Shown here: positions 2,787 to 37,182 of the stretch, one piece after another
Layout: each line of letters begins with the position of its first letter
How positions within the stretch are numbered: position 1 is the first letter of the stretch
Assembly (NCBI GenBank): GCA_004211435.1
Contig: SECS01000004.1
Coordinates: forward strand, 1 to 64,000
Reading direction: 5' to 3'
DNA length: 64,000 nucleotides
DNA from: Novosphingobium sp.
GTDB taxonomy: Bacteria > Pseudomonadota > Alphaproteobacteria > Sphingomonadales > Sphingomonadaceae
Program-made: the position numbers and the translations under genes
The notes under the pieces: model-generated
What the model saw: the letters and a program-made list of their open reading frames with translations, nothing else
The model's database searches: none
Told to the model about the DNA's origin: nothing

Positions 2787-3515
2787 TCAGGTCGCGCGCG
2801 CTTCCAGCATCAATTCGGTCACCGCGACGTCGGCAGGCAGGTCGATCAGCCAAGGCAGCATGTCCGCGACCGAGGCAAACTGGCTGACCGCGTTGTAGCC
2901 GATCTTGCGCTTGGCGCGCTCCTCGCGGAAGCGGGCGAAGACCTCGGGCGACATGTTCATCGTCATGCCCTCTTCCATCATGCCCGCCGCGCGCAGCATC
3001 GACACGCGGATGCCGCGCTCGGCCACTTCCTCGCGCAAGGTCTTGGTGAAGCGTTCGAGCCCGGCCTTGCTCGTCTGGTAGAGCGCGAGCATCACCGCCG
3101 GCTCGGCGACCGTGCGCGTGCTGATGTTGATGACGTGGCTGCCTTCGCCCATCTGCGCGAGCGCCGCGCGGGTGACGTGGATCGTGCCGGCGAGATTGGT
3201 GTCGAGCGCCTGGGCGATCTGTTCGTCGCTGCCTTCGTCGATCATGAAGGGCTCGTAGACCGCGGCGTTGTTGATCAGCACGTCGATGCGCGGCTCGTGC
3301 TTGGCGATTGCGGCGAAGGCCGAACGCACGCTCTCGACCGCGCCGACGTCGCAGGACAGGGCAAACGCGCCGCCACCGATCTCCTCGGCCACGGCCTCGA
3401 CCTTGGCCAGCGAGCGCCCGAGGAGCACGAGCCGGTGCCCCTCGCGTGCGAGCCTGCGCGCCATCGCCCGCCCGAGGCCCGAACCCGCGCCCGTAATCAC
3501 CACCACCTTGCCCAT
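2787..3515 (-). CDS. Short-chain dehydrogenase/reductase (SDR)
   Basis: Classical SDR, NAD(P)-dependent oxidoreductase of 242 residues. The N-terminal cofactor motif is TGAGSGLG, followed by a Rossmann pattern, NNA in VLINNAAVY, Ser in NISTRTV, and the catalytic Tyr/Lys in LYQTSKAG. The substrate cannot be read from sequence. The frame stays open further upstream, but AGGAG (3522-3526) lies 6 bases before the ATG at 3515 and the Rossmann motif starts a few residues in, so I chose that start. It converges with the hydrolase operon and is divergent from the TonB-dependent receptor gene. Confidence 0.88.
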   Translation of the reverse strand: MGKVVVITGAGSGLGRAMARRLAREGHRLVLLGRSLAKVEAVAEEIGGGAFALSCDVGAVESVRSAFAAIAKHEPRIDVLINNAAVYEPFMIDEGSDEQIAQALDTNLAGTIHVTRAALAQMGEGSHVINISTRTVAEPAVMLALYQTSKAGLERFTKTLREEVAERGIRVSMLRAAGMMEEGMTMNMSPEVFARFREERAKRKIGYNAVSQFASVADMLPWLIDLPADVAVTELMLEARAT

Positions 3516-3728
3516 CCGCATCTCCTGGATTCGTTTTTCGCGAAGATAGCTCCCACTATCGACAAACCAAGTCCACCGATGGTTTTCGTTCCAGACATCG
3601 TGCTGGAACCAGAGTGCCAAATGTCATAGACGTGGTGAAATAGAACCGCGGCGTACTGTTGAAGACGCGCGGCGTCGGCTTGGGAAAACGGGCGTCGGTA
3701 AAACACCGGGCCAACGTGGGAGGATGTG

Positions 3729-6110: not shown

Positions 6111-6116
6111 ATCCAC

Positions 6117-6142
6117 GGCCCTCCCCTCGCCGGGGGAGGGCC
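6117..6142. terminator. Bidirectional hairpin terminator
   Basis: Perfect 10-bp inverted repeat (GGCCCTCCCC / GGGGAGGGCC) with a 6-base loop, lying between the convergent stops of the TonB receptor and the NTF2-like operon. There is no clear U-tract on either side, so efficiency is uncertain. Confidence 0.65.
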
Positions 6143-8587: not shown

Positions 8588-11122
8588 CTAGGCGGCGGGC
8601 AGATTCTGCGCCGCGAATCCCCATCCCTTGAGGTCCTTGCGGCGCGCGCGCGTGATCAATTCGGTGGAATCAGCGATCGACCATTCGTGCGCGCTCTCGA
8701 CGTTCTCGAGTTCGTCCCAGGTGATGGGCACGGCGACCGGGGCGCCGTCGCGGGCGCGTGCCGAATAGGGCATCACCGCCGTGGAGCCGCGCTGGTTGCG
8801 CAGATAATCGATGAATATCTTGCCCTTACGCTTGGCCTTGGACAGCGTCGCGACGAAGCGGTCAGGCTCGGCCAGGCTCATCGCCTCGGCAAAGCGCTTC
8901 GAGAAGTCCTTGTGCGCCTCCCAATCATGCCCCGGCGTCAGCGGCACGACGACGTGCACGCCCTTGCCGCCCGAGACCATCGCGAAGCTCGTCAGGCCGA
9001 GTTCGGTCAACCGGTCGCGCAGATCGAAGGCGGCCTGCTTGACATGGGTCCAGTGGAGCCCCTCGTCGGGGTCAAGATCGAACACCATCCGATCCGGTGC
9101 CTCCACCTCGCTGGCGTGCGAGCCCCAGCCGTGGAACTCGATCGTGCCCATCTGCACGCAGGCCAGGATACCGGCGCTGTCCTCGACGTAGATGTAGTCC
9201 TCGTGGCCGCCGTCCTTCTCGCGGATCGGCACCTGGTGGACGTCCTTTCCGAACATTCCGGAATCGTGCTTCTGGAAGAAGCACTTCTTGGCGCGCCCCT
9301 GCGGACATCGAACCAGGCTGATCGGCCGACCGGCCATGTGCGGCAGCATCAGCGGCGCGACGGCGGCGTAGTAGTCGGCAAGCTGTCCCTTGGTGTGGCC
9401 GCTCTCGGGGAAGATCACGCGGTCGCGGTTGCTGATCTTGACCGCGGGTTCGGGCGCCGGCGCGGGCTGGGCCTTCTCGGGCTTCACCGCCTTGGCCGGC
9501 TTGTCGCTGCGCAGCCCGAGGAACGAGCCGTGGCGCACACGGCCCCCCCCAGGTTCATTGGCGGCGGTCATCTCGGCGAAGGCGATCTCGGCGACGAGTT
9601 TGGGTTCGATCCAATGGCCGCCGCGCGCCTCGACCCGCGGCACCTCGGCGGCTGGCGTGCCGCGCGCCAGCGGCTTCATCCGCGCGGCGAGATCGGCGAG
9701 CGTTTCAGTATCGAAGCCCGTGCCGACCTTGCCCTTGTAGACCAGCGTGTTGCCCTCGTGCTGGGCGAGGAACAGCGAGGCAAAGGGCCGCGCCTTGGCG
9801 CTCGACTGGGTCCAGCCGATCACGACGAACTCCTGTCGCCGCGTGCATTTGACCTTGACCCAGGACTTGGTGCGCGTGCCGCGATAGGGCGTGTCGATGC
9901 GCTTCGAGATGATCCCTTCCATGCCCGCCTGGCACATCGCCGCGTAGAGCTTCTCGCCCGCGCCGATCACGTGGTCGGCGACGCGGATCGGCGGCTCGGC
10001 TTGGGCAAGCAGCGCTTCGAGCCGCTCCTTGCGCTCGATCTGGGGAAGGGCCTTGAGGTCCTCGCCGTTGAGCGAGAGCAGATCGAAGGCATGGAAATCC
10101 ATGTGCGATTTCTGGCTGCCGTGGCCACGCTTGAGTTCGGCCTGCAGCGCCGAGAAGCTCGGGTTGCCGTCCTTGCCCGGCGCGGTGATCTCGCCGTCGA
10201 TCAGCGCGGGCGGCAGATCGAGCGCGGTCACCGCCTGGACCAGCGGGCCGAACTTGTCGGTCCAGTCTAGGCCCTTGCGCGTATAGACGCGCACCTTGGT
10301 CCCCGCGACTGCGACCAGCGCGCGGTATCCGTCGAACTTGATCTCGTGGAGCCAGTCGTTGCCCGCGGGCACGGCATCGACCAAGGTCGCGAGCTGCGGC
10401 GCGGCGAACTTCGGGGGCTTGCCCGCGGACCTTTTGGCGGCGGGCTTGGTGGCGCGCTTGTTGTGCGCGGCAGCCTTTTCCATCTCTGCCGCGAAGACCT
10501 CGCCCTTCTTTCCCTTGAGCGAGTGGCTGGCCTTCTTGTCGGCGGCGATCTCGGCCATCGAGCGGCCGGTGAGCACGCTCGACAACGCGCGTTCGACGAG
10601 ATCGCCCGCACCACCGGCATGTTTGTCGTCGATCTTGCGCAGCAGCCAATTCTCGCGCTTCTCGCCGGGCCGCGGCTTCATGCGGACGAGCAGCCATTCA
10701 CCCTTCATCCGCTCGCCGTGGAGCACGAAGTGCAGGTGCCCGTCCTCGATATCCTTGGCGCTCTTGCCGGGGATCGGGTCCCAGGTACCCTTGTCCCAGA
10801 GCATGACCGTGCCGCCGCCGTACTCGCCCTTGGGGATCGTCCCCTCGAACTCGGCATAGGACATCGGGTGGTCCTCGGTGCGCACCGCCAGCCGCTTATC
10901 CTCGGGATCGAGGCTCGGCCCCTTGGTCACGGCCCAGCTTTTGAGCACACCGTCGACCTCGAGCCGGAAGTCCCAGTGCAGCCGCGTCGCCGCGTGCTTC
11001 TGGACGATGAAGCGGTTGCCCTCGGGGCTCGACTGGCGCTTGCCCGCAGGCTCTGCGGTCTTCTTGAAATCGCGCTTGGCGTTGTAGGTCGCCAGCGGGT
11101 CCTTCCGCGCGCCGGCCGCCAT
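8588..11122 (-). CDS. ligD: Multifunctional ATP-dependent DNA ligase D
   Basis: 844-residue LigD for bacterial non-homologous end joining: it trims, fills and seals double-strand breaks brought together by Ku. Domain order is 3'-phosphoesterase (about 1-170), ligase (about 240-530), polymerase/primase (about 560-840). Phosphoesterase residues H43, H49, D51, R53 and H85 match the Pseudomonas enzyme pattern. The ligase nucleophile is K262 in EIKFDGYR. The polymerase has the metal-binding FDLDPDEG near residue 680. A Lys/Ala-rich linker separates the first two domains. The ATG lies one base after the ku stop, so the two are co-translated. Confidence 0.96.
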   Translation of the reverse strand: MAAGARKDPLATYNAKRDFKKTAEPAGKRQSSPEGNRFIVQKHAATRLHWDFRLEVDGVLKSWAVTKGPSLDPEDKRLAVRTEDHPMSYAEFEGTIPKGEYGGGTVMLWDKGTWDPIPGKSAKDIEDGHLHFVLHGERMKGEWLLVRMKPRPGEKRENWLLRKIDDKHAGGAGDLVERALSSVLTGRSMAEIAADKKASHSLKGKKGEVFAAEMEKAAAHNKRATKPAAKRSAGKPPKFAAPQLATLVDAVPAGNDWLHEIKFDGYRALVAVAGTKVRVYTRKGLDWTDKFGPLVQAVTALDLPPALIDGEITAPGKDGNPSFSALQAELKRGHGSQKSHMDFHAFDLLSLNGEDLKALPQIERKERLEALLAQAEPPIRVADHVIGAGEKLYAAMCQAGMEGIISKRIDTPYRGTRTKSWVKVKCTRRQEFVVIGWTQSSAKARPFASLFLAQHEGNTLVYKGKVGTGFDTETLADLAARMKPLARGTPAAEVPRVEARGGHWIEPKLVAEIAFAEMTAANEPGGGRVRHGSFLGLRSDKPAKAVKPEKAQPAPAPEPAVKISNRDRVIFPESGHTKGQLADYYAAVAPLMLPHMAGRPISLVRCPQGRAKKCFFQKHDSGMFGKDVHQVPIREKDGGHEDYIYVEDSAGILACVQMGTIEFHGWGSHASEVEAPDRMVFDLDPDEGLHWTHVKQAAFDLRDRLTELGLTSFAMVSGGKGVHVVVPLTPGHDWEAHKDFSKRFAEAMSLAEPDRFVATLSKAKRKGKIFIDYLRNQRGSTAVMPYSARARDGAPVAVPITWDELENVESAHEWSIADSTELITRARRKDLKGWGFAAQNLPAA

Positions 11123-11123
11123 G

Positions 11124-12038
11124 TCAGGCGCGCTTGCGGGCGATCGGCGCCTTGGCGGCGGGCTTGCGCGCGGCCGGCTTCTTCGCCGCAGCGGCGGTCT
11201 TCTTGGCCGGCGCTTTCTTCTCCTCCGCGTCGGCCGGCGGTTTCTTCTTGCCCTCGACCGAGGCCTTGAGCGCGGCCATCAGATCGATGACGTTCGACTT
11301 GCCGCTGACCGCGCCGGGCTCGTCGGTGTCCTCGATCACGCGCTTGCCCTTGGACTTGGCCTTCTTTTCGATCAACCGATGCAGCGCGTCGATGTAGCGG
11401 TTGTGGTATTCGCCCGCGTCGAACTGGCCCGACTTCTTGTCGATCAAGGTCGTGGCCAGGTCGAGCAGGTCCGCGTCCGGCTTCTTGTCGTGGATGTCGC
11501 GGAAATAGTTCGCGGCCTTGTTCACCTCGTCGGCATAGCGCAAGGTCTCGAGCACCAGCCCGCGCCCGCAGGGCTTGAGGCTGATCAGGTATTCCTGGCC
11601 GCGGATCGCCAACTGGCCGAGCCCGACCTTGCGCGCCTTCCGCAGTGCCTCGCGGAGCACGACATAGGCCTCTTCGGCCAGCTCGTCGGCGGGGACGACG
11701 TAATAGGGCTGGTCGAAATAGAGCACGTCGATCGCATCGGCATCGACGAACTGGACGAGATCGAGCGTGCGCTTGGACTCGAGCTTGACCGCTTCGATCT
11801 CGGCATCCTCGAGCAGCACGAAATTGCCCTTCGAGACCTCGTAGCCCTTGATGATCTCGTCGCGATCGACCGGGCCGACCCCGGGCACGACCTTCTCGTA
11901 CTTGATCGGCTTGCCCGAGGGCTCGTGGATCTGACGGAACGAGATCGAGGCGCCCGACTTGGTGGCCTTGTAGATCTCCACCGGGATCGAGACGAGGGCG
12001 AGGCGGATCTGTCCCTTCCAATATGCGCGAGCGGCCAT
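11124..12038 (-). CDS. ku: Ku protein, DNA end-binding
   Basis: 304-residue bacterial Ku. It forms a homodimeric ring on DNA ends and recruits LigD. Family landmarks: the N-terminal YWKGQIRLALVSIPVEIYKA, then QIHEPSGKPIKY, DADAIDVLYFDQPYYV and YADEVNKAANYF. The C-terminal ~45 residues are a Lys/Ala/Pro-rich tail, as in other Ku proteins where such tails contact DNA. GGAGG lies 5 bases before the ATG at 12038, favoured over a Met 7 codons upstream. ku is first in the ku-ligD operon, 78 bases from the end of a TonB receptor gene transcribed in the same direction. Confidence 0.96.
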   Translation of the reverse strand: MAARAYWKGQIRLALVSIPVEIYKATKSGASISFRQIHEPSGKPIKYEKVVPGVGPVDRDEIIKGYEVSKGNFVLLEDAEIEAVKLESKRTLDLVQFVDADAIDVLYFDQPYYVVPADELAEEAYVVLREALRKARKVGLGQLAIRGQEYLISLKPCGRGLVLETLRYADEVNKAANYFRDIHDKKPDADLLDLATTLIDKKSGQFDAGEYHNRYIDALHRLIEKKAKSKGKRVIEDTDEPGAVSGKSNVIDLMAALKASVEGKKKPPADAEEKKAPAKKTAAAAKKPAARKPAAKAPIARKRA

Positions 12039-12116
12039 GCGAACCTCCGGCCGAGTCAAGCTGCGGCGGGGGGATTGGTTCCAGGGCGGCGCGCGGGGCA
12101 GGGGGTTCCTTTCGCC

Positions 12117-14030
12117 TCAGAAGTCCGCCGTCACCGAGGCCACCGCCCGGCGCCCCTTCGCCAGGGTAAACCCGCCGCCTCCCGAAACCTGCCAGCCGTA
12201 GACGTCACCGAGGTTGCGAACCTGCATGCGGAACATCGTGGGGACCTTGCCGACGCGCGTGCGATAGCGTGCGCCAAGGTCGACGATCGTTCTTGCCGGA
12301 ATGGCCAGTGTGTCGGCGGCATCGGCAACGCGACGGCCTTCGTGAACGAGCCGGGCATCGAGCGAAAAGCCGGGCAGCGAGGACAGTTGGTAGTCGACTG
12401 CCGCATCGATGAGCAGACCGGTCCGGCCGATCGGTTTCGCACCGAGCCTGCCATCGGCAACGGCCTGGCCGCTGACGCGCGGGCGCAAAAGAACAGCGCC
12501 GACGATGAGGTTTAGGTTCGGAACGGGCCTGGCCGAGAGAGAGCCTTCCAGGCCGCGATGGGTTACCGATCCGAGCTGGCGATAGGCGCCGTCGCTCCGG
12601 TCGATCTCGAAGTAGGGTTTGGCAATGTCGAATGCGGCCAAGACGATGCGCCAGGTGCCGAGCGCATAGCGGGCGCCGAACTCGTATTGCCGGGTGCGCA
12701 GCGCGGGAAGGGCTTCGCCTCGGTTGGCGGCATTGCTCGGCGCGATGCCGCTTTCCTCGAGCCCGCGCGTCGTCGCGGCATAGAGCGTGAGGCGATCGGT
12801 CGGCATGAGTGCGAGCGCGGCATTCCACAGCCAGGGCCGGTCGTGCTGGTCGGTCCGGGGCAGGCCGGGCTGGTCGATGCGCTTGCGGTAGTCGGTGCGG
12901 GTGACCCCGAGATTCAACTCAGCAACGCGCGGCCAGCGCAACTCGTAGGCGAGCGCGTAGCTCAGGTGCCGCACGCGGTCGTGGGTCAGCGGACCATAGC
13001 CGAGAGCGGGTTCGGGCACCGGCGCCGGCACGCCGACCCGGCCGATGCCGAGATCGGCGACCGCATAGCCGCCATAGTCGGTCGCGACGCTGCGGCCGCG
13101 CGCCGAGGCGAGCAGGCGATGGCGGCGCGGTCCCTCGGCAAAGGTCCGGCTGACCCGGATTTCGCCCGAGGTCGAGGCGGCGCGCTGGTCGCGACCGCGG
13201 ATCACGAACGATCGGCCGAGGCCCTGGCCATCGACGCCTTCGAAATAGGCGGAGGCATAGTCGTCGCGCGCGAAGCGGCTGTTGAAGGCGCCCGCGGCGA
13301 TCTGCCAGGCGCCGAGATCGGCCTTCAGCATGGCGCCGTAGTTCTGCGCGTGCCCTGCCCATTGCCCCCAGTCCTGGCCGAAGAAGCGCCGGCGCTCGAT
13401 TTGCGGGGGCAGGTAGGCGCTGGCCGTGTAGATCGTCGGACCCTGTTCCTCGTCGCCGAAGTCGTAGCGCCCGAAGAAGCCGGTCAGTTCGACCCGGTCG
13501 ACCGGCTGCCAGCGCGCGACGCCGCCATAGCTGACGAACCAGCCGCCCGCGCCGTTCACGTACTGGTCGTCGAACAGGCCGAGGTCGAGATTGACGCTGA
13601 AGCGCTCGCTGACCGGCAGAGCGAGATCGGCGGTGAAGTCGGTACCGAGATATTCGCCGCTGCTCAGTTGCAGGCTCGCCACGGCGTCCTTGCCGGCGCG
13701 GCGCAGGTCGATGTCGACGATGCCGGTCGGCGCGGGCAGCGGATAGCCGAAAGCCGAGAGGCCGACACGAACGTTGGAGCCGCGCACGATCACGTCGGTG
13801 ACCGCGCCCTGCTTGTCGAAATAGAGCCCCTCGATCCGGTTGTTGCCCGCGTCGGACGCGCTGAAGCCGCGGACCTGGCCGCTCGCATAGATGCCGATCG
13901 ATTCGTTGCCGACGCTCGAGCCGAAGCCGTCCTCGGCCGTGCGCGCAGCATTGTCCGCGGTCCGCTGGGCCAGGGCCGGAGTCTCGCCCGAGCCCCAGGC
14001 AAGCAGCGCCGCGGAAACCAGCTTCCTCAT
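12117..14030 (-). CDS. TonB-dependent receptor, second of an overlapping pair
   Basis: 637 residues. Signal peptide ending TPALAQ, a plug-like region with GQVRGFSASDAGNNRIEGLY and VIVRGSNVRVG, and a beta-barrel ending in ASVTADF with terminal Phe. I see no classical TonB box (no IVVTG-like stretch), which is unusual. Its ATG overlaps the stop of the upstream receptor (ATGA), so the two are translated as a coupled pair. The ligand is unknown; the paired receptor is of siderophore type, and a divergent exporter operon shares the control region. It might bind the same ligand in another form. Confidence 0.88.
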   Translation of the reverse strand: MRKLVSAALLAWGSGETPALAQRTADNAARTAEDGFGSSVGNESIGIYASGQVRGFSASDAGNNRIEGLYFDKQGAVTDVIVRGSNVRVGLSAFGYPLPAPTGIVDIDLRRAGKDAVASLQLSSGEYLGTDFTADLALPVSERFSVNLDLGLFDDQYVNGAGGWFVSYGGVARWQPVDRVELTGFFGRYDFGDEEQGPTIYTASAYLPPQIERRRFFGQDWGQWAGHAQNYGAMLKADLGAWQIAAGAFNSRFARDDYASAYFEGVDGQGLGRSFVIRGRDQRAASTSGEIRVSRTFAEGPRRHRLLASARGRSVATDYGGYAVADLGIGRVGVPAPVPEPALGYGPLTHDRVRHLSYALAYELRWPRVAELNLGVTRTDYRKRIDQPGLPRTDQHDRPWLWNAALALMPTDRLTLYAATTRGLEESGIAPSNAANRGEALPALRTRQYEFGARYALGTWRIVLAAFDIAKPYFEIDRSDGAYRQLGSVTHRGLEGSLSARPVPNLNLIVGAVLLRPRVSGQAVADGRLGAKPIGRTGLLIDAAVDYQLSSLPGFSLDARLVHEGRRVADAADTLAIPARTIVDLGARYRTRVGKVPTMFRMQVRNLGDVYGWQVSGGGGFTLAKGRRAVASVTADF

Positions 14031-16108
14031 AGCGCGAACACGAGCCGTGCACGGACCGTGCGCGGCGCGCCCGGCGTGATCCAGACGTCGCTGTAGGAGC
14101 TCTCGATATAATAGGCGTCGAACAGGTTATCGACGTCGAGATGCGCCTTCAGACCCCGGGTCAGCTGATAGGAGAGGTTGAGGCGCGCCGTGACGTAGTC
14201 GGGCAGGCGAAAGCCGCTGGCGACGTCGTCGCCCGGCCGCCCGCCGACATAGGTCAGCCCCAGGCCGAGGCCGAGCGAGCCGGGCTCCTTCCCGTTTGAT
14301 TGCCAGAATGCCTGAACGGCGCCGCTATGCCGGGGCACGTTCGAAAGACCACTGTTCAGAAGCGCGGGGCGCGTGTCCTCGACGACCCTGGCGTCGGTAT
14401 AGGCATAGACCGCGGTCAGCGAGAACCGGTCATCGGGGCGGAAGTTGAGGTCGGCCTCGACGCCCTTGCTGCGCGCGCGACCGGCGGCGATCGAGAAGCC
14501 GGCATTGGCCGGATCGGTGACGAGGACATTGTCCTTGGTGATGCGGAACAGCGAGACGGTTCCGGTCAGCCTCTGCTCCGCCAGGGCGAACTTGATGCCG
14601 GCTTCGAGCGCCTCGCCGCGTTCGGGGGCGAAGGGGTTCGAGGCCGCGTCTATGCCCTGATTGAACCGGAACGACTTGCCCCAGCTGACATAGGCCGAGA
14701 GGTTCTCGGTCGGCGCGAAAGTGAAGGCCGCGCGCGGCGAGGTGACCGAGGGGGCCTGCCGGTCGGTGCGGTTCGTGCGGTAGTTGACGTTGGCCTGGCG
14801 GATCCGGTCGTGGCGAATGCCGAGCAGCAGCGAGAAGCGCTTGCCGAGCGTGACGAGATCCTGCGCGTAGACGCTTTCGCCGTGAAGCTGTTCGAGCAGG
14901 TCCTGGTTGAGCGGAGCGACCGGCTTCGGCTGGCCGTAGACGGGGTTGAAGATGTCGATGCCGTAAGGCGTCGTCGCGGTCGGGCTGAAGCGGTAGAAGA
15001 TCCGGCGCTGATCATAGTCGAAAGCGTCGCCGCCGAGGCGGAACTGGTGCTCGAGCCCGAACAGATCGCCGTTGGCGCTGAGCTCGACGCGGCCCGACAG
15101 GTCCTGCCATTCGTAATCGTGTATCCGCAACTGCCGGCGCAACGTGGTGCCGACGAGCGCCGCGTTGTGCGTCGACTGGCCCGACATCTGCCCGTCGCGA
15201 TATTGCACGCCGGCCTCCAGCGCGACGCCGGGCGCCAGGTCGACATAAATCGTGCCCTGGTGCTGCGCGGTGCGCTGGGTGATCTGCCCGTCGTTTGGCT
15301 CACCGAAAAAGCGGCTGCGCGGCAGCGCCTTGGGATCGCCGTTCACCGCGACGAGGCCGCGATCGTGGGTGAAGTGCACGAGGTTGTATTCGAGCTGATA
15401 GAGCAGCCGCACCGCTTCGCTCGGCTTCCACGCGATCGACGGGGCGAGGAGCAGCCGGTCGGTCTTGTTGAAATCGCGGAAGCTGTCGCCCTGCTGGTAG
15501 ACGCCGATGACGCGCGCCGAGAGGCCGTCGCTGGCCGGCCCGCCCAGATCGAAGACGCCGCGGCGCGTATCGAAGCTGCCATAGGACAGCTCCCCGGATG
15601 CGTGGAACCGATCTTGCGGGGCCTTGGTGACGACGTTGATCGATCCACCCGGCTCGCCTTTGCCCGATAGCGCCGAGGCTGGACCCTTGAGCACCTGAAA
15701 GCTCTCGAGCGTGGCGACGTCGCGCCGGGCGTTGAAGCCGCGGTTCGCGGTGAAGCGGTTGATCAGGAGATCGGGCCCCTGGTTGATGTCGCCCGAGAAT
15801 CCGCGGATCGCATAGGCGTCCCAGGCGCCGCCGAAGCTGTTCTGCCGCGCCATGCCGCCGGCGAGATCGAACAGTTGCGAAAGGTCTGTGTAGCCGGTCT
15901 GTTCGACGAGCTCCTTGTCGAGGACGCGCACGTTCTGCGGCAGCAGGATCGGCGCGATCGAGAGGCCGTTGATGCTGGCGTTGGCCTCTCGCGACCCGGT
16001 GACGACGATCTGATCGCGCTCTCCATCGGCGTCTTCGCTCTCCTCGGCAAAAGCCGGGACAGGCATCAGCAATACGCTCGGTAGCAGCCAGTGCTTCCAT
16101 CCACTCAT
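14027..16108 (-). CDS. TonB-dependent siderophore-type receptor
   Basis: 693 residues. Signal peptide MSGWKHWLLPSVLLMPVPAF, TonB box DQIVVTGSREAN (about residues 32-43), a plug with AYAIRGFSGDI and KGPASALSGKGEPGGSINVV, and a barrel ending in LVFAL. The plug motifs fit the TonB-dependent siderophore receptor subfamily. The ATG at 16108 follows a G-rich GGGGG; another Met lies 11 codons upstream but inside the palindrome at 16124-16142, so I prefer 16108. The gene overlaps the next receptor by 4 bases. It is divergent from an ABC exporter operon across a 138-bp control region. Confidence 0.92.
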   Translation of the reverse strand: MSGWKHWLLPSVLLMPVPAFAEESEDADGERDQIVVTGSREANASINGLSIAPILLPQNVRVLDKELVEQTGYTDLSQLFDLAGGMARQNSFGGAWDAYAIRGFSGDINQGPDLLINRFTANRGFNARRDVATLESFQVLKGPASALSGKGEPGGSINVVTKAPQDRFHASGELSYGSFDTRRGVFDLGGPASDGLSARVIGVYQQGDSFRDFNKTDRLLLAPSIAWKPSEAVRLLYQLEYNLVHFTHDRGLVAVNGDPKALPRSRFFGEPNDGQITQRTAQHQGTIYVDLAPGVALEAGVQYRDGQMSGQSTHNAALVGTTLRRQLRIHDYEWQDLSGRVELSANGDLFGLEHQFRLGGDAFDYDQRRIFYRFSPTATTPYGIDIFNPVYGQPKPVAPLNQDLLEQLHGESVYAQDLVTLGKRFSLLLGIRHDRIRQANVNYRTNRTDRQAPSVTSPRAAFTFAPTENLSAYVSWGKSFRFNQGIDAASNPFAPERGEALEAGIKFALAEQRLTGTVSLFRITKDNVLVTDPANAGFSIAAGRARSKGVEADLNFRPDDRFSLTAVYAYTDARVVEDTRPALLNSGLSNVPRHSGAVQAFWQSNGKEPGSLGLGLGLTYVGGRPGDDVASGFRLPDYVTARLNLSYQLTRGLKAHLDVDNLFDAYYIESSYSDVWITPGAPRTVRARLVFAL

Positions 16109-16123
16109 TTTCGAAACCCCCAC

Positions 16124-16142
16124 AATGATATGATGTATCATT
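16124..16142. promoter_or_regulatory. Palindromic operator candidate in divergent control region
   Basis: Inverted repeat AATGATA-5-TATCATT, with a run of C on the left and of G on the right. It sits between a possible minus-strand -10 and the start of the siderophore-type receptor gene. The AT-rich palindromic style recalls Fur-type metal-responsive operators; the regulator itself is inferred. Confidence 0.5.
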
Positions 16143-16171
16143 GGGGTAGAGCGCTCCAATACGGCCGTCAA
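16143..16171 (-). promoter_or_regulatory. Candidate promoter for the TonB receptor pair
   Basis: Minus strand TTGACG (16166-16171), 17-base spacer, then TACCCC (16143-16148). The -35 is good, the -10 poor. The downstream edge abuts the palindrome at 16124-16142, a position that suits repression. Confidence 0.4.
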
Positions 16172-16177
16172 TGTTAT

Positions 16178-16190
16178 GATATAATATATC
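16178..16190 (+). promoter_or_regulatory. -10 box inside a 13-bp palindrome, exporter operon promoter
   Basis: GATATA-A-TATATC is a perfect 13-bp palindrome that contains a consensus TATAAT (16180-16185) on the plus strand, 62 bases before the ABC ATPase start. No clear -35 is visible. A repressor binding the palindrome would block the promoter, so the exporter and receptors may be co-regulated. Confidence 0.45.
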
Positions 16191-16246
16191 TCTTGACCGG
16201 AGTGCGCTTGGCCGCGAAATGTGGGCTCCTGACGAAGGAGAATCCC

Positions 16247-16981
16247 ATGCCCGAGCCCGTTTCGGCTCCAATCGACCTGTCCGCTGTCGCGCTCTCCTAT
16301 GGATCGCACCGTGTGCTCGACGGCCTCACGCTCCAGGTCGCCCGCGGCAGCATCTATGCGCTGCTCGGCGGCAACGGCGCGGGTAAGTCGACCACGCTCT
16401 CGGTGCTGCTCGGCTTCGCGAAGCCCGAAGCGGGCAGGGTGCAGATCGCTGGGATCGATCCGGGTGCCGATGCGGATGCAGCGCGTCGCAGGATCGCCTA
16501 TCTTCCCGAGAACGTGGCGCTCTATGAGCATCTCTCCGCCTTCGAGAACGCTGACTACCTGCTGGCGCTCTCGGGCGAGCGCCAGTCGCGCGATGCCGTC
16601 CTCGGCGCTTTCGCCGCCGCGGGCCTGCAGGAGCGGGCCTGGGACCAGCGGCTCGGCGGTTTTTCGAAGGGTATGCGTCAGAAGGTGGCGATCGCCGTGG
16701 CGCTGCTGCGCGAAGTGCCCGTGCTGCTGCTCGACGAGCCGACCTCCGGCCTCGATCCGCGCGCGACGGCCGACTTCAACACGCTGCTCGCCTCGGTTCG
16801 CGGGCGCGGTACCGCGGTGCTGATGGTGACGCACGACCTGATGAGCGCCGCCGACGTCGCCGATCGCATCGGTTGCATCGCTGCCGGCCGGATCGCCGAC
16901 GAGGTGGCGGCTGCGGGCCGCGAGCGGTTCGATCTGCGCGAATTGCACGCGCGCTTCGCGGGCGAGAGGGCCGCGGCATGA
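16247..16981 (+). CDS. ABC transporter ATP-binding protein
   Basis: 244 residues, a complete nucleotide-binding domain. Walker A GGNGAGKST (41-49), signature FSKGM (139-143), Walker B VLLLDEP (159-165), D-loop SGLD and switch His196 in VTHD. It is of the ABC-2/drug-exporter subfamily, not the importer type, and has no fused membrane domain. GAAGGAG lies 6 bases before the ATG. The stop overlaps the next gene's start by 4 bases (ATGA), linking it to two permeases. It presumably energises those permeases for export of an unknown small molecule or for an envelope maturation step. Confidence 0.93.
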   Translation: MPEPVSAPIDLSAVALSYGSHRVLDGLTLQVARGSIYALLGGNGAGKSTTLSVLLGFAKPEAGRVQIAGIDPGADADAARRRIAYLPENVALYEHLSAFENADYLLALSGERQSRDAVLGAFAAAGLQERAWDQRLGGFSKGMRQKVAIAVALLREVPVLLLDEPTSGLDPRATADFNTLLASVRGRGTAVLMVTHDLMSAADVADRIGCIAAGRIADEVAAAGRERFDLRELHARFAGERAAA

Positions 16982-18414
16982 ACCCGGCGCTGCTCGTGGC
17001 CCGCGACGAACTGCGCCTGATGCGGCGCAATCGCGTCGCCGTCATCGCCTTCGCCCTGCTCGTGCTCCTGACCTTGACCGCGGTGGTCACCGCCTGGAGC
17101 CACCGCCAGGGCATCGACGCTCTGCGCACGCGTCACCAGGCCGCGGCCGATCGCGCCTTCGACGCGCAGCCCGATCGTCACCCACACCGCGTCGTCCACT
17201 ACGGCACCTTCATCTTCCGCCCGCTCGGTCTGCTCGCGGCGTTCGATCCGGGGGTGGACGCCTTCACCGGCAATTCCATGTTTCTCGAAGGTCACCGGCA
17301 GAACACCGCCAATTTCGGCGACGTGCGCCAGAGCTCGCTGCTGATCCGCTTCGGCCAGCTCACTCCGGCCTTCGTCCTGCAGGCGGTCGCGCCGCTGCTG
17401 CTCATCTTCCTTGGCTATGGCGCGATCGCGCGCGAGCGCGAAAGGGGTACGCTGCGGCCCCTGATGCTGCAGGGGGCGTCGAGCGGCCAGATCGTTGCCG
17501 GCAAGCTCGTCGCGCTCGGGCTGGTGGCGCTCCTGGCCGGTCTTCCGGCGATGCTCGGCTTCGCGCTGATCGCGGGCCAGCCGGGCGCCCAGTCCGCGCC
17601 GATGGCGCTGATCGCGATCGGCTACGGTGTCTACCTCGCGCTGTGGTCGGCGCTGATCCTGTTCCTGTCGGCGCTGATGCGGCGCAGCCGCGACGCGCTG
17701 ATCGCCTTGCTCGCGCTGTGGGCCGTGCTCGTCGTGCTGCTGCCGCGCGTGGCGCCGGACGTGGCCGGCGCCATGGTGCCGCTGAGCAACCGCCTTCAGA
17801 CCGATATCGCCATCGCGCGCGACCTGCGCGGCCTGGGCGATAGCCACGATCCCGCCGATCCGCACTTCGCGCGGTTCAAGCAGTCGGTGCTCGACCGCTA
17901 CGGCGTCACCCGTGTCGAAGAGCTTCCCGTGAACTACAAGGGCATCCTCGCCGTGGAGGGCGAAAGGCTGACCTCGGACCTGTTCGACCGCTACGCGGCG
18001 CGGAGCTTCGACGCGCAGGTTCGGCAGAACGACGTGGTCCATTCGCTCGGCCTGCTGAGCCCGGCCATCGCGCTGCGTACGCTGTCGATGGCGGCGGCGG
18101 GAACCGACTTTGCGGGCCATCGCCGCTTTCTCGAGCAGGCCGAAGCCTATCGCTTCGATCTGGTCCAGCGCCTCAATCGCCTCCAGGCCAATGCCGTGAG
18201 CTATGCCGACGACACGGCCCGGGATGCCGACGCCGACCGGCGCAAGCGCGTTTCGGAGCAGACCTGGCAGGCCATGCCCGATTTCCGGTTCCGCCAGCCC
18301 GCCGGTTCCACGCTCGCCCTGGCGGCGCTGCCGTGGCTCGGCGTGCTGGCGGCGTGGCTTCTCGTGGCAGCCGCCGCGCTCGTCTTCGCGACGCGCCGTC
18401 TGGGAGGCCGCTGA
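16978..18414 (+). CDS. ABC-2 type permease, DUF3526-like (first)
   Basis: 478 residues. An N-terminal membrane helix (about 22-42) is followed by a ~100-residue extracytoplasmic segment, then a cluster of helices (VAPLLLIFLGYGAIARERERG through ALIALLALWAVLVVLLP), a second soluble region and a final helix near the C-terminus (LPWLGVLAAWLLVAAAALVF). This layout fits ABC-2/DUF3526 permeases related to NosY-type transporters. IARERERGTLRPLMLQ is the typical coupling segment. The gene overlaps both neighbours (4 bases upstream, 1 base downstream), so the three exporter genes form one unit. Substrate unknown. Confidence 0.85.
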   Translation: MNPALLVARDELRLMRRNRVAVIAFALLVLLTLTAVVTAWSHRQGIDALRTRHQAAADRAFDAQPDRHPHRVVHYGTFIFRPLGLLAAFDPGVDAFTGNSMFLEGHRQNTANFGDVRQSSLLIRFGQLTPAFVLQAVAPLLLIFLGYGAIARERERGTLRPLMLQGASSGQIVAGKLVALGLVALLAGLPAMLGFALIAGQPGAQSAPMALIAIGYGVYLALWSALILFLSALMRRSRDALIALLALWAVLVVLLPRVAPDVAGAMVPLSNRLQTDIAIARDLRGLGDSHDPADPHFARFKQSVLDRYGVTRVEELPVNYKGILAVEGERLTSDLFDRYAARSFDAQVRQNDVVHSLGLLSPAIALRTLSMAAAGTDFAGHRRFLEQAEAYRFDLVQRLNRLQANAVSYADDTARDADADRRKRVSEQTWQAMPDFRFRQPAGSTLALAALPWLGVLAAWLLVAAAALVFATRRLGGR

Positions 18415-19664
18415 TGCGCATCTGGATGTACGAAGCGCGGCTGCTGTTCCGCGCCCGGCTCGCGGTCGGCGCCCTGGCATTGCTCGCGGTCCTGAGCCTG
18501 GCCGCGGTCGGCGCAGGGCTGGCCGAAGTGGCGCGCCAGCACGGGGCCATCGCGGCGATCGCCGAACCGCAGAAGCAGGACATCGCCGCGATCGCCGCCT
18601 GGGTGGACAAAGACAAGGATGCCGGCAGCGCTGCCTATTACACGTTCCATCCGACCTGGGACGCGCCGTCGCCGCTCGCTTTCGCCGCGATCGGCATGCG
18701 CGACGTCTCGCCCTACATCCTGCGCGTGCGGGCGTTGGGCCTGGAAGCGCAGATCTACGACGGCGACGTGTTCAATCCCGAACTGGCCTTGCCGGGGAGG
18801 TTCGACTTCTCGTTCCTGCTCGTGTTTCTCGCGCCGCTTTTCGTGATCGCGCTGTTCCACGATCTCATTTCCGGCGAGCGGGAGGCCGGCCGTGCCCGCA
18901 TGCTTTCCGCCCTGCCGGGCGCGCGACGACTCTGGTTCCGGCGCGCGCTGCTGCGCTTCGGCCTGGTCTTCGCGGTGATCATGGCGCCGTTTCTCGTCGC
19001 TGCCATCTGGTCGGCCGTTCCCGTAGGGTCGGTAGCGCTGATCGTGCTGGCCGCCGCCGCCTATCTGCTGTTCTGGATCGCGCTCGCGCTGCTGGTGGGC
19101 CGGCTCGGCGCGAGCTCGACCGCCAATGCCGCGACTCTCGCGGGCGCTTGGCTGGTGCTGACGCTCGTTCTGCCCACTCTCGCACATGTGGCGATCAATC
19201 AGGCCGTGCCGATCGATCAGGGCTCGGAAATCGCGCTGGCGCAGCGCGAGAAGGTCAACGCAGCATGGGAAATCCCGCGCGAGGAAACCATGCGCCAGTT
19301 CTACGCAAGCCATCCGCAGTGGTCCGGCTCTCCACCGCTCGGCCCGGATTTCCACTACAAATGGTACCTGGCCTTCCATCAGGTCGGCGACGAAAGCGTG
19401 GCGCGGCAGGTGCAGGCCTACAAGGCCGGCCTGAAGAAGCGCGATGCCGCGGCGCGGACGGTGGGATGGGCCTTGCCGCCCGTCGGTCTGCAGGCGTTGC
19501 TGACCGGGCTCGCCGGTACCGATCTCGCCGCGCAACTGGCCTACCAGGAGCGCATCCGCGCCTTCCACCGCGACCTGCGCGAGTTCTACTATGGCTACCT
19601 TTTCACCGATCGCCCCTTTGCCAAGGCAGACTTCGCGAAGGCGCCCAGGTTCGAAGGATCGTGA
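18414..19664 (+). CDS. ABC-2 type permease, DUF3526-like (second)
   Basis: 416 residues, paralogous in layout to the preceding permease: an N-terminal helix (about 15-38), a soluble loop, helices around FSFLLVFLAPLFVIALFHD with the coupling segment ISGEREAGRARML, further helices through LAGAWLVLTLVLPTLAHV, then a ~130-residue soluble C-terminal region. Unlike the first permease it lacks a clear last helix. The start codon shares one base with the previous stop (TGATG). The two permeases probably form a heterodimer with the ATPase. 91 bases separate it from the radical SAM gene. Confidence 0.85.
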   Translation: MRIWMYEARLLFRARLAVGALALLAVLSLAAVGAGLAEVARQHGAIAAIAEPQKQDIAAIAAWVDKDKDAGSAAYYTFHPTWDAPSPLAFAAIGMRDVSPYILRVRALGLEAQIYDGDVFNPELALPGRFDFSFLLVFLAPLFVIALFHDLISGEREAGRARMLSALPGARRLWFRRALLRFGLVFAVIMAPFLVAAIWSAVPVGSVALIVLAAAAYLLFWIALALLVGRLGASSTANAATLAGAWLVLTLVLPTLAHVAINQAVPIDQGSEIALAQREKVNAAWEIPREETMRQFYASHPQWSGSPPLGPDFHYKWYLAFHQVGDESVARQVQAYKAGLKKRDAAARTVGWALPPVGLQALLTGLAGTDLAAQLAYQERIRAFHRDLREFYYGYLFTDRPFAKADFAKAPRFEGS

Positions 19665-19755
19665 ATGGCCGGCTCGCCGCCATTGAGCGGTGGACAGGCT
19701 TTCGCGCATGGTCGATCATGTCGGGAGGTATCGATTGATTTTCTGATAGGGGAAC

Positions 19756-21498
19756 ATGGACAAAGTCTTGTCAGCGCCGGCGCTTCGCGAAGGCCTCGAA
19801 GGTTCGCGGGTGGCGGCCGGCTCGCCGCGCCGGAAGGTTCTCTTCGTCGTCGTCACGCATCTGCGCTCGGAAGGCAATGCGGGGAACATCCAGGACTATC
19901 CCTATGGCGTCCTGTCGATCATCAAGCATAATCAGGGGCTTGCTGATTTCGACATCATGGACGTGGCCATCGATCACGATGGCATCGCGCGGCTCGAGGG
20001 CGATCTGCGCGCCAAGCTCGAAGCGTTCCAGCCCGATATCCTCGGGGTATCGGTCATGTTCGACAATGCCTATTTCGCCATCGCGCCGGTCCTGAAGGTC
20101 GCCAAGCAGGTCTCGCCGGACATCCTGACGGTGTGCGGCGGGCCGGCGGTTTCCCCCGTCGCCAAGAAGATCCTGCAGAACCAGCCCGACCTTGACGCGA
20201 TCTGCTTCTCCGAAGGCGAACTGCCGTTCCACGATCTGCTGATGGCCGAGAACCTGCTCCAGGAGGTCGAGGATCACGCCACCTGGGTGTCGCGCAAGGA
20301 TATCGCCAGCCCCAAGGGCCCGCAGAAGAAGCTGCTGACCGACATCAGCGAGGTCATCGACATCGACTATTCGCTGATCGACGTGGCCAGCTACGATCGC
20401 CGGGTGTCGTTCAATCCGCTCGACGACCGCTATCTCGACAGTCTGCGCGCGTTTCCGATCGTCACCTCGCGCGGTTGCCCGTTCAAGTGCTCGTTCTGCT
20501 GGCATTCGGGTGAAAACGACAAGTCGATGCGCTATTCGGGCGTCGACGAACTGATCGCCCATGTCGAGAACATCGTGGCGCGCTATGGCGCCAACTGCCT
20601 GATCTTCTACGACGACATGCTGCTGCTGGCGCGCGATCGCGCCAAGGAAATCTTCCGCCGGCTCGCGCCCTTCAACCTTCGCATCGAATTGCCGAACGGC
20701 CTTTCGCCCACCTACATGGACGAGGAGCTGATCGAGCTGATGTACAAGGCCGGGGTCCGATCGGTCCGCATCGCGGTGGAATCGGGCGACGAATGGGTCA
20801 TTCGCAACCTCGTCAACAAGCCGATGAAGATCGCCCATGTCCAGCCCGTCGTCGATGCCCTGCGCAGGCACAACATCTGGATCGTGGCCTTCATCGTGGT
20901 CGGCCTGCCCGGCGAGACCGACCAGCATCGCCAGACAACGCGCGACAAGATCCTCGAATGGGGCATCGACCTCTGCAGCATATCGGTGGCTAGTCCGATC
21001 AAGGGCTCGCTGCTCTATGAGCAGTGCCTCGAGGAAGGCTATATCGACCCCAACGCGGAATTCCTCGTGTCCGGCTTCCTCTATGGCGAGAACGTCATCA
21101 ACACGAAGGAGTTCTCTGCCGAATACATCTCCGATGCGGCCTATGTGATGAATCTCGACGTCAATTTCGTCAATTCATACCGCTTGCAGAACGGCGACTA
21201 CGCCGCGGCCGATTCCTACTTCGAATATGTCACGCGAACCTATCAGAACCACGCCTTCGGCCACTATTGCCTGGCGCTGACCAAGGGCCAGCTGAACCAG
21301 CCCGAAGCCGCCGCGCGCCATTGGGCGGAAGCGGTGCGCATCGGCCGGGCCGACCCGCTCTGGGCCGGCTATTTCGACCGCTTCGGCATCACGCTGGGCC
21401 AGGACTACGACGAGTTCGTCGCCCTGACCCTGATGCGCGGCCATGGCGCAACGCAACTGAGCTATGTCGGAAGCACGGGAACCCTGATGAGCGCTTGA
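19756..21498 (+). CDS. Cobalamin-binding-type radical SAM protein with TPR-like tail
   Basis: 580 residues. An N-terminal Rossmann-like B12-binding domain (about 27-160, with PDILGVSVMF and TVCGGPAVSP) lacks the DxHxxG cobalamin-ligand motif, as in many of this class. The radical SAM core has CPFKCSFC with cluster cysteines C241, C245 and C248. The C-terminal ~110 residues (GDYAAADSYFEYVTRTYQ, LNQPEAAARHWAEAV) look like TPR helices. Such enzymes often methylate unactivated carbons or form rings; the substrate here is unknown. It lies 91 bases after the exporter operon, on the same strand, preceded by AGGGG. No precursor-peptide gene is seen beside it. Confidence 0.88.
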   Translation: MDKVLSAPALREGLEGSRVAAGSPRRKVLFVVVTHLRSEGNAGNIQDYPYGVLSIIKHNQGLADFDIMDVAIDHDGIARLEGDLRAKLEAFQPDILGVSVMFDNAYFAIAPVLKVAKQVSPDILTVCGGPAVSPVAKKILQNQPDLDAICFSEGELPFHDLLMAENLLQEVEDHATWVSRKDIASPKGPQKKLLTDISEVIDIDYSLIDVASYDRRVSFNPLDDRYLDSLRAFPIVTSRGCPFKCSFCWHSGENDKSMRYSGVDELIAHVENIVARYGANCLIFYDDMLLLARDRAKEIFRRLAPFNLRIELPNGLSPTYMDEELIELMYKAGVRSVRIAVESGDEWVIRNLVNKPMKIAHVQPVVDALRRHNIWIVAFIVVGLPGETDQHRQTTRDKILEWGIDLCSISVASPIKGSLLYEQCLEEGYIDPNAEFLVSGFLYGENVINTKEFSAEYISDAAYVMNLDVNFVNSYRLQNGDYAAADSYFEYVTRTYQNHAFGHYCLALTKGQLNQPEAAARHWAEAVRIGRADPLWAGYFDRFGITLGQDYDEFVALTLMRGHGATQLSYVGSTGTLMSA

Positions 21499-21560
21499 GA
21501 ACGGGCAGGACGAGTATCGACCCAGGTCGCCGCGCCGAAGATCGTCGCAGCGGCTAGTCC

Positions 21561-23059: not shown

Positions 23060-24547
23060 TCAGGCGACGCCGGCAAATCGCAGCAGGTCGATTATCAGGA
23101 AGTCGTCGCCGGTCCGTCCTGCATCGATCGTCGGCAGTGACGGCTGCCATTCGGGATCCTGGGACAGATACGACGTGCCATCGCCCTGCATCAGGCCAAT
23201 GAACACCTCTGCGATGATCCTGCCGCCGACCGGGCCGAGCGTCTTTCCTTCGGCCAGCACTGCCGCCTCCCGCAGGATGTAGAACCAAAGCGGGGTTCGG
23301 TCATCGAGACCATAGGGTTTCAGGTCGGCCAAGTCCCCCTTGGATAGGATCGGCAGTTCCATCGCCTTCGCCACGCGCTGACCCGAGGGCAAGGAGAAGG
23401 TGAGGTGGCGCAGCAGGTTGCGCTGGGCGAGCGAAGCCGGGTTGGATTTCGCCGCCGCGTTCGGCACCACCGATCCGGGCAGCCGGAACATGGCCGTCGA
23501 CAGGATGCTGTCTATCGCCTTGTTGGGTCGAACGTTGCCGTCGCCGAAGTCGAAGAACGTCGGCCAGTCGATGAAGCGTCGCGGTGCGCGGTGACCGCCG
23601 GACAGATCGTCCGGATCGTTCGGGTTCGACGGGGTGGGCGTGAAGATCATCCCGAAAAACGGTTGTCCGCCAGGATTGCCCGTGAAATTGGCGCGATAGG
23701 AAGGGCGCACCTGGCTGTGGCCGAAGCGGTAGGCCGCGACCGAGAATTCCACCGGGACGAACGGCTCGTTGTGCCACTTGTAATGCTTGCGGCCGTTGGC
23801 GAGAATGTCTTCGACGACCGCGGCGCCGCAGGTCTTCTTCAGGAATTCGTGGATCACGATCCATTGGTAGTGCCAGCGCACCAGGCGTTGCGCCTCGTTG
23901 AAGATCTCGTCGGGGTTGGTCAGTTTGACCTTCGTCTTGACGTGATCGATCGCCGCATTGTGAAACTTGAGGAAGGCCACCTGGAGCTGCGAGATGATCA
24001 GGTTCTCGTCATCGCGCGGATCGCCGATGAGGGCGACGTTCTGGCTGTTGCGCGGCACGTCGAACTTGCCCGGCGTACCGGTTTCCTCGAGCAGGAACTT
24101 GATCCCTTTCCCGGCACCCTGATCGTACAGATGCGGACTGCCGCCGGGGCCGGAGCCGTACACGTTGTCGAGCGCGAGCGACGGCGTGCGGAAGTTGGAG
24201 ATGTGCTCGGGATCCGCCTGTCGCTCGAGGCTGGAGGTCGGGTCGAACGTCATGTCGTGATCGAGGAACTGCCCCAGAAAGGTAAAGCCGGCAGTGAGCT
24301 GCGGGTTGTTCGGATTCTTGGCCGACAGGGCCGGCTCGGTGATCAGTTTGATAGGGCCTTCGGACAGTTTGTCCTTGGCATCCATGATCCCGCCGGGCTT
24401 GCCGATGTCGATCAGGGCTTCGCGAATTTCGGGTGTGTCCGATGAAAATGCAGGCAGCTGCGGGAAGAGTCTCCCGAATCTTCCGGAATCGAAATACTTT
24501 GATTTTGGCGGAACTATATCGTGCGGATAAATACCGTGACGAGCCAT
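23060..24547 (-). CDS. Animal-type haem peroxidase (peroxidase-cyclooxygenase superfamily)
   Basis: 495 residues. The fold resembles myeloperoxidase and bacterial peroxicins. Catalytic landmarks are all present: LGQFLDHDMTF with D96, distal H97 and Ca-binding D98; GDPRDDEN with R178 and E181; and YRFGHSQVRPSY with proximal H277. D96 and E181 match the residues that covalently anchor haem in the mammalian enzymes. It should oxidise halides or phenols with peroxide. No signal peptide is seen, so it is cytosolic or leaves by another route. GGAGG precedes the ATG. It is followed by a long inverted repeat and then rsgA. Horizontal gain is possible but not shown. Confidence 0.9.
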   Translation of the reverse strand: MARHGIYPHDIVPPKSKYFDSGRFGRLFPQLPAFSSDTPEIREALIDIGKPGGIMDAKDKLSEGPIKLITEPALSAKNPNNPQLTAGFTFLGQFLDHDMTFDPTSSLERQADPEHISNFRTPSLALDNVYGSGPGGSPHLYDQGAGKGIKFLLEETGTPGKFDVPRNSQNVALIGDPRDDENLIISQLQVAFLKFHNAAIDHVKTKVKLTNPDEIFNEAQRLVRWHYQWIVIHEFLKKTCGAAVVEDILANGRKHYKWHNEPFVPVEFSVAAYRFGHSQVRPSYRANFTGNPGGQPFFGMIFTPTPSNPNDPDDLSGGHRAPRRFIDWPTFFDFGDGNVRPNKAIDSILSTAMFRLPGSVVPNAAAKSNPASLAQRNLLRHLTFSLPSGQRVAKAMELPILSKGDLADLKPYGLDDRTPLWFYILREAAVLAEGKTLGPVGGRIIAEVFIGLMQGDGTSYLSQDPEWQPSLPTIDAGRTGDDFLIIDLLRFAGVA

Positions 24548-32099: not shown

Positions 32100-32189
32100 T
32101 ATCGGCGGGGGCAGTCTTCAAACTGCAACGTTAATCACCATATGGGCGGAGCCGCACAACGGCTCCCCCACATCTCCGAGGAACTCATC

Positions 32190-34283
<2,094 letters not shown>

Positions 34284-34373
34284 GCGGCAAGATCAGATTA
34301 GGGGCGGCGCCTGTTTCAGCGGGTGCCGACTCCGTCCCGCAGATTCAATTCAAGCGAAAAGAAGGTTGGAACA

Positions 34374-35564: not shown

Positions 35565-35587
35565 GCTTCGCGATCTGATGGGTTCTG

Positions 35588-35623
35588 AAGGCCCGGTCTT
35601 CCTTGGGGAGGCCGGGCCTTTGC
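35588..35623 (+). terminator. Terminator after tuf
   Basis: AAGGCCCGG (35588-35596) pairs with CCGGGCCTT (35612-35620), with extra pairing in the arms (CTTCC/GGAGG). Only a short run of T follows, so it is good in shape but not a perfect intrinsic terminator. Confidence 0.65.
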
Positions 35624-35797
35624 CCGTCTGACGGGACCTGCCCGCAGTGTTTCGCGGCGATCCTGGTGGTGATTCGCGGCTTGCATCTGCCGCCGACGGC
35701 CTCTGGTCGCGAATCTCCCGAGATCCGCGGATTTTCTGAGGCAAAAGCCCTTGCGCGAATCCCCGAAGCTTAGTAGGGGCGCGCTTCGCAATTGATC

Positions 35798-35811: not shown

Positions 35812-35838
35812 AAGGCTCTTTCTCATCGGTAGTTGGAC

Positions 35839-37179: not shown

Positions 37180-37182
37180 GTC

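Follow-up and report, generated by a model that had tools for sequence, protein, structure and literature searches.

Does a locus in which receptor, transporter and radical S-adenosylmethionine (SAM) genes lie side by side encode one pathway, or two neighbours that share only a place? The question is raised by the window analysed here, a stretch of 64,000 nucleotides from Novosphingobium sp. (contig SECS01000004.1). In it, two overlapping genes for TonB-dependent receptors (TBDR1 and TBDR2) diverge from an overlapping operon for an ATP-binding cassette (ABC) ATPase and two permeases, which is followed after 91 bases by a gene for a B12-binding-type radical SAM protein. A first-pass annotation made from the sequence alone had read the six genes as one likely system for making or processing and transporting a metallophore or other small molecule, while allowing that the radical SAM gene might be independent. 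Translation and family scans confirm all six genes with refined coordinates (see the table); TBDR1, at 12117-14030 on the minus strand, falls outside the 14027 start first given. Our reading, which we hold at a probability of about 0.8, is that two unrelated units adjoin: a zinc-starvation block (12117-19664) and a solo radical SAM gene (19756-21498).

The two units differ in their distribution. Of 199 sampled genomes of the family, 27 have relatives of permease 2 (E up to 1e-10), this genome included. We compared the window with 30 relatives' loci of 11-20 kb (tblastn, E 1e-6): 22 from the family (21 of its 26 other genomes with permease 2 relatives), two from genomes of the class and six from six of 12 plasmid records; L044 and L046 come from one genome. 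The part of the one-system proposal that stands is that receptors and ABC transporter form a conserved block around one control region. Membership of the radical SAM gene does not stand: it is in none of the 30 loci, and the expected five-to-six gene order with it is not found there. The radical SAM protein has no match in 198 other sampled family genomes (E 1e-60) and none in 58 other genomes of the genus (E 1e-40); relatives with 29-38% identity are found in 4 of 384 other genomes of the class. A pattern scan of 84,980 species returned 176 matches, the best 80 of which give 79 loci. Three close relatives stand among the matches listed, from Novosphingobium sp. JCM 18896 (91%), Xaviernesmea oryzae (80%) and X. 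rhizosphaerae (79%), and the fourth-closest listed is at 39%. Within 10 kb of the gene in these three, tblastn (E 1e-6) finds no match to any block gene, which supports the suggestion that the gene might be independent. A plasmid search with the protein gave 108 records, all below 60% identity (best listed 27%), and therefore no close plasmid copy from the searched collection.

The boundary of the shared DNA points the same way. The DNA common to the window and the Novosphingobium locus L055 runs from 19682 to 21500 at 88.5% identity and consists of a 74-base leader, the gene and two bases beyond its stop codon. A promoter-like TGGACA-17-GATCAT (9 of 12 matches) lies in the leader, where the alignment of all four genomes shows TGGACA or TAGACA; the gene may have its own promoter, as the first-pass annotation had considered. 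Two further short matches to L055 (61 and 81 bases) lie at window 3833-4186, inside a receptor-like open reading frame (ORF; 3726-6110, plus strand, 794 aa). This ORF also has a weak tblastn match to TBDR2 (25%) and is probably another TonB-dependent receptor.

The gene's surroundings vary among its close relatives. In L055 it neighbours genes for a carboxylic acid reductase and a molybdenum aldehyde oxidoreductase, each of which exceeds its NCBIfam cut-off, and in both Xaviernesmea loci (L056:9264-12861 and L057) it lies inside a cobalamin adenosyltransferase/ETF-beta pair. The same pair stands 126-1049 bases apart without a radical SAM gene in 18 of 26 other genomes, and in the remaining eight the 1.5-kb flank shows no ETF-beta. 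As the pair often occurs without the gene, the adenosyltransferase may be next to a B12-type enzyme by chance. In a tree of 28 rows the window and the three close relatives form a single long-branched clade with full support. The gene has a G+C content of 61.4% versus 66-70% for the five block genes; a nearby peroxidase gene is also at 61.4%, and the third-position G+C of the radical SAM gene (0.838) is like that of the block genes. An empty site between permease 2 and RsgA was not demonstrated, RsgA being at that place in no relative's locus examined. Judged by its distribution, the radical SAM gene is probably an independent, acquired gene, which would have come with its own leader.

If instead all six genes formed one system, the enzyme would make or modify a zinc- or other metal-binding molecule, the ABC transporter would export it and the receptors would take it back. 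Relatives of the receptors are metallophore receptors, and NosY-like ABC-2 permeases fit export. Two observations count against separate units and for this alternative: the radical SAM gene follows permease 2 on the same strand (gap 19665-19755) with no terminator-like site in 19664-19756, and 4-8 kb upstream of it in L055 are a different type of TonB-dependent receptor (933 aa, 1665-4466), about 5.5 kb from the radical SAM gene, and a major facilitator superfamily transporter (4675-6117). The L055 receptor has no tblastn match to TBDR1 or TBDR2, and we give it little weight because sphingomonads have many TonB-dependent receptors. Opposed to a single system are the 30 loci without the gene, the three close relatives without a block gene nearby, the shared DNA that ends at the gene's own leader, and the company of the wider radical SAM family, which is mostly of another sort (see below). 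Nor does any of the six proteins match a recognised synthesis family, such as an NRPS/PKS or a nicotianamine-like synthase, above cut-off (Pfam, NCBIfam), and the idea of metallophore synthesis is not borne out. A single metallophore system that includes the radical SAM enzyme was rejected on the separate distribution and the leader boundary, and the one-system reading seems to us very improbable.

A looser tie would be compatible with two units: read-through from permease 2 could induce the radical SAM enzyme under zinc starvation without any shared pathway. The common strand and the gap free of terminator-like sites make such co-transcription possible on sequence grounds; the promoter-like element of the gene, with its aligned counterpart in the nearest relative, speaks against it, and we consider induction of this kind rather doubtful.

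The five receptor and transporter genes, for their part, would be a zinc-starvation block of the znuK/znuGHI kind. The passages of PMC4176598 considered here list Caulobacter crescentus znuK (a TonB-dependent receptor, CC1517) beside znuG-H-I (ABC-2 ATPase, permease, permease, CC1518-1520) and print the znuK/znuGHI Zur site as one site on both strands, GATGTTATATCATAACAAT and ATTGTTATGATATAACATC. They report that Zur binds the znuK/znuGHI promoter in vitro and directly represses both when zinc is plentiful, and that a znuK mutant forms no colonies at 850 μM EDTA and is rescued by zinc addition. In the relatives of the window block, a TBDR2-like gene lies no more than 900 bases from the ATPase in 23 of the 30 loci (tblastn). 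Annotated plasmids of Eleftheria and Comamonas carry receptor, ATPase and two DUF3526 genes consecutively. A Hymenobacter plasmid has the same set with one small ORF between the permeases, and the stretch shown of a Methylocystis plasmid has the ABC set but no receptor. DUF3526 is rare, being found in 4 of 385 sampled class genomes and in one of 14 named control genomes, that of Caulobacter.

Zinc-related genes accompany the block in some relatives. At least one gene of the Zur, DUF1826, MerC or ZigA type is present in 10 of the 30 loci (Zur-like in 5, DUF1826 in 7, ZigA-like in 3) versus 0 of 79 control loci, which are the neighbourhoods of radical SAM homologues in other taxa; as the marker queries were taken from L050, L053 and this genome, the independent finds are 8 of 28 loci. 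A figure legend of PMC2770081 lists DUF1826 in Zur-regulated clusters, and a passage of PMC5786701 on Zur RNA-seq in Francisella also mentions it. Locus L053 has on one strand a ZigA-like GTPase (588 bits, just below the cut-off of 600), DUF1826, TBDR2, ATPase, permease 1, permease 2 and TBDR1, with a palindrome at 3077-3091 immediately before the GTPase ORF. In L050 (12994-18429), TBDR2 is followed in one run by DUF1826, a MerC-type gene, a Zur-like gene and a MacB/FtsX-type ABC set, a putative large zinc-starvation cluster. The Zur-like protein of L050 (57 bits, cut-off 167, no Pfam match) is 41% identical to that of the window's genome.

The 138-base region between TBDR2 and the ATPase carries the candidate operators. 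In the 4.49-Mb genome there are two TGATATNNNATATCA sites (at most one mismatch), both in this region, versus none for the reversed-pattern control; palindrome 1 is one of the two. The stretch 16170-16188, AATGTTATGATATAATATA, agrees with the Zur site of Caulobacter znuG in 16 of 19 bases (compared by eye) and holds TATAAT. The pattern TGTTATNNNATAACA (at most one mismatch) occurs at two places in the genome, one of them in the divergent region, and at one reversed-control place. Block promoters of the relatives (29 loci, window included, 15.3 kb) contain 25 sites of a looser W pattern (up to two mismatches) versus 0 of the reversed pattern; three of the 25 are the window's own, some sites overlap, and 17 loci have at least one. 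These matches suggest a Zur-type operator in the shared promoter, as in a znuK/znuGHI-type block. Two Fur-family genes of this genome exceed the Pfam FUR cut-off; the best NCBIfam match of the first is Fur and that of the second is Zur, both proteins scoring below the NCBIfam cut-offs.

With ample zinc, a Zur-type repressor, probably the second of these Fur-family proteins (encoded at L151:5375-5836), would hold the palindromes at 16126-16191 and shut off transcription in both directions. Under zinc shortage, TBDR2 and TBDR1 would take up zinc, or a small molecule that binds it, across the outer membrane, and the ATPase with the DUF3526 pair would serve the same substrate as a NosFY-like ABC-2 transporter in the inner membrane. 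The metal-scavenging theme of the first-pass annotation is thereby kept and narrowed: zinc fits best, by operator-like sites and zinc-gene neighbours.

The receptor pair proved to be as described, with a 4-base overlap and one siderophore-type member. TBDR2 scores 313 bits against the siderophore receptor model TIGR01783, above the curated cut-off of 223.5, and TBDR1 105 bits, below it; TBDR1 has a PF00593 barrel (E 1e-23) and a plug domain unrecognised by Pfam. The nearest solved chains to TBDR2 by sequence are the enantio-pyochelin receptor (E 9e-42) and the metal-pseudopaline receptor CntO (E 2e-41). TBDR1 homologues are present in 5 of the 30 loci and in four of these (L049, L053, L054, L162) stand directly after permease 2 on the same strand. 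Compared with L041, L044, L045 and L165, permease 1 is 72-73% identical and TBDR2 only 35-37%; therefore the receptor has been replaced in some lineages and the transporter kept. Among themselves, L044, L045 and L165 share 68-70% identity in TBDR2, from which L041 stands apart as well.

Several observations weigh against zinc. The W pattern occurs at 7 places in this genome, 3 of them in the divergent region, versus 4 reversed-control places, and is therefore unselective alone; 12 of the 29 loci with a scanned promoter carry no site. The Zur-like protein reaches 60 bits against the Zur model NF008646, whose cut-off is 167, and no zinc marker gene was found in the window. The genome also has a Fur, and the sphingomonad form TGATATNNNATATCA is two changes from the Zur form and two from the Fur form, TGATAANNNTTATCA. 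Alternatively, the block could serve iron, under Fur, or copper, with two siderophore receptors and a transporter for the siderophore; palindrome 1 lies two changes from a Fur consensus, TBDR2 is siderophore-type with the enantio-pyochelin receptor as best solved relative, and the NosY similarity of the permeases could fit copper. The 16-of-19 match to the znuG Zur site and the zinc-gene neighbours, found in a third of the relatives' loci and in no control, make iron or copper unlikely. Three reservations concern the Caulobacter parallel. Orthology to CC1517-CC1520 is putative, judged by layout, family and operator. The label of znuGHI as an uptake system comes with no transport assay in the passages considered of PMC4176598. 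In those considered of PMC11870441, single disruptions of the Caulobacter Zur regulon had no noteworthy fitness defect at 300 μM EDTA, save zrpW.

The last two reservations bear on the direction of transport. Among the Pseudomonas aeruginosa systems zrmABCD/cntOLMI (pseudopaline) and PA2911-PA2914/PA4063-PA4066, a Zur-regulated ABC system annotated as an importer was later re-read as an exporter (passages considered of PMC11481552), and we question import by ZnuGHI because of this case, the label without an assay and the weak single-mutant effects. Both permeases match DUF3526, as had been noted, and their family profiles find NosY among solved structures (E 3e-7 for permease 1, E 5e-5 for permease 2); solved relatives of the ATPase include ABCA-type ATPases (E 1e-47) and NosF (E 2e-36). 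In the permease alignments (22 rows, A3; 19 rows, A6), H68, H70, H74, H106 and H290 of permease 1 are invariant in 19 of 19 aligned rows and lie outside hydrophobic segments; in permease 2, H385 is the only histidine of this sort. The usual ABC-2 topology would place these histidine-bearing parts in the periplasm. For permease 2, modelling gave no usable structure (mean pLDDT 49.6). We tentatively raise the idea, to which we give less than even odds, that the DUF3526 pair and ZnuGHI are a NosFY-like exporter or mechanical motor rather than an importer, returning a zinc-stripped carrier to the periplasm or handling periplasmic metal through the five-histidine site, as a fixed engine for exchangeable metallophore receptors. 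The literature searched yielded no paper on DUF3526, and none linking Zur, a TonB-dependent receptor and an ABC-2 permease in sphingomonads.

The radical SAM protein, outside the block, carries a PF02310 domain (45.9 bits) and a PF04055 domain (70.1 bits), both above cut-off, in agreement with its first description. Its CxxxCxxC motif spans residues 241-248, with C241, C245 and C248 invariant in the 28 rows of a structure-based alignment (A4; 27 of the 79 loci and the window). The motif and the B12-binding-type domain together make it a putative B12-dependent radical SAM enzyme. A TPR-like tail had also been described; the C-terminal part is all-helical from about residue 455 in the structure model (mean pLDDT 83), and no Pfam TPR model matches it at E 0.001, so the likeness is one of appearance only. 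The fold of the model matches AprD4, CysS, TsrM and TokK (E 8e-19 to 6e-14, 15-19% identity). The top match is AprD4, whose structure is titled diol dehydratase. AprD4 is not known to use cobalamin, and the protein studied here therefore need not bind it either. NCBIfam equivalogs (Sden_1168, HpnJ, AprD4 and others) were tried for a closer assignment, and all 24 listed models scored far below their cut-offs.

At least two sugar-, methyltransferase- or flagellin-type families lie within six genes either side of the wider family's members in 59 of 77 loci (the 79 less L111 and L126, which have no called gene at the match); neighbour genes were called by a simple script, and each cluster took its name from the Pfam hits of one representative. 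No such neighbours lie within six genes of the three close relatives. A sugar-modifying reaction is our family-level guess; the enzyme would probably modify a sugar or sugar-like substrate, outside the zinc block, and the solo clade may have adopted another substrate. The literature searched gave no relevant paper on radical SAM enzymes with tetratricopeptide, cobalamin-binding and flagellin link. Elsewhere in the family, two copies lie about 6-16 kb apart on one contig (G539:C6; L033 and L036), and likewise on Chromobacterium contigs (L077/L126, L093/L107, L089/L111).

Together these readings would turn an unexplained sphingomonad receptor/exporter block into one with a concrete zinc-starvation role, whose transporter part is constant and whose receptor is exchanged, and they put zinc import by ZnuGHI in question. 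The position of the radical SAM enzyme alone would be a false lead for a metallophore study.

Features of the receptor/transporter block, its control region and the adjoining radical SAM gene (window positions)
Feature	Coordinates	Strand	Description	Basis
TBDR1	12117-14030	-	TonB-dependent receptor, 637 aa	translation and family scans
TBDR2	14027-16108	-	siderophore-type TonB-dependent receptor, 693 aa, ZnuK position	
Operator-like palindrome 1, TGATATGATGTATCA	16126-16140	unstranded	starts 18 bases upstream of TBDR2 start	
Operator-like palindromes 2 and 3, TGTTATGATATAATA and TGATATAATATATCT	16172-16191	unstranded	overlapping; cover TATAAT	
ABC ATPase	16247-16981	+	ZnuG position	PF00005, E 2e-31
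Permease 1	16978-18414	+	DUF3526 ABC-2 permease, ZnuH position	PF12040, E 1e-36
Permease 2	18414-19664	+	DUF3526 ABC-2 permease, ZnuI position	PF12040, E 6e-37
Leader travelling with radical SAM gene	19682-19755	+	includes promoter-like TGGACA-17-GATCAT at 19691-19719	
Radical SAM gene	19756-21498	+	B12-binding-type, helical tail; probably an independent solo gene	

The ATPase and permease genes each overlap the next, and all five receptor and transporter genes overlap on their respective strands. The longest TBDR2 ORF (973 aa) would reach 16948 and overlap the ATPase; the start at 16108, preceded by GGGGG, was chosen over it. Around these genes, Ku-like and LigD-like genes (bacterial end joining; 8588-12059, minus strand) adjoin TBDR1, and an RsgA-like gene lies beyond the radical SAM gene, all named by reading translations. 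Also beyond it is the peroxidase gene, of the animal haem type (23060-24547, minus strand; PF03098, E 2e-22). Elongation factors G and Tu and ribosomal proteins L3, L2, S3, L5, L6 and S5 are encoded at 32142-45031 on the plus strand (8 genes scanned), and the block is therefore near core chromosome genes. Scans of the window gave no Rfam match at the gathering threshold and no tRNA gene.

Compared with known systems, the radical SAM protein resembles AprD4, TsrM, CysS and TokK in fold, CxxxCxxC motif and B12-binding-type domain, and differs from them in its low sequence identity and extra helical tail. NosFY is a metal-related ABC transporter. The permeases and ATPase of the block are similar in sequence to NosFY (PDB 7o0y); unlike it, the block has two different DUF3526 permeases with an extra large domain, the NosY similarity covers about 125 residues, and there is no NosD among the six genes. 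The P. aeruginosa systems zrmABCD/cntOLMI (pseudopaline) and PA2911-PA2914/PA4063-PA4066 likewise include a Zur-regulated TonB-dependent receptor for a metal chelate (passages considered of PMC11481552); unlike them, the block has no recognised synthesis genes, and its transporter is of the ABC-2/DUF3526 type, not MacB. The closest parallel in layout is Caulobacter znuK/znuGHI. Unlike it, the window has a second receptor that overlaps the first and two operator places versus one, with an operator nearer TGATATNNNATATCA. Like it, the window has a TonB-dependent receptor adjoining an ABC-2 ATPase-permease-permease set, the arrangement of a znuK/znuGHI-type block, and a palindromic, operator-like element between both transcripts that overlaps the -10 region.

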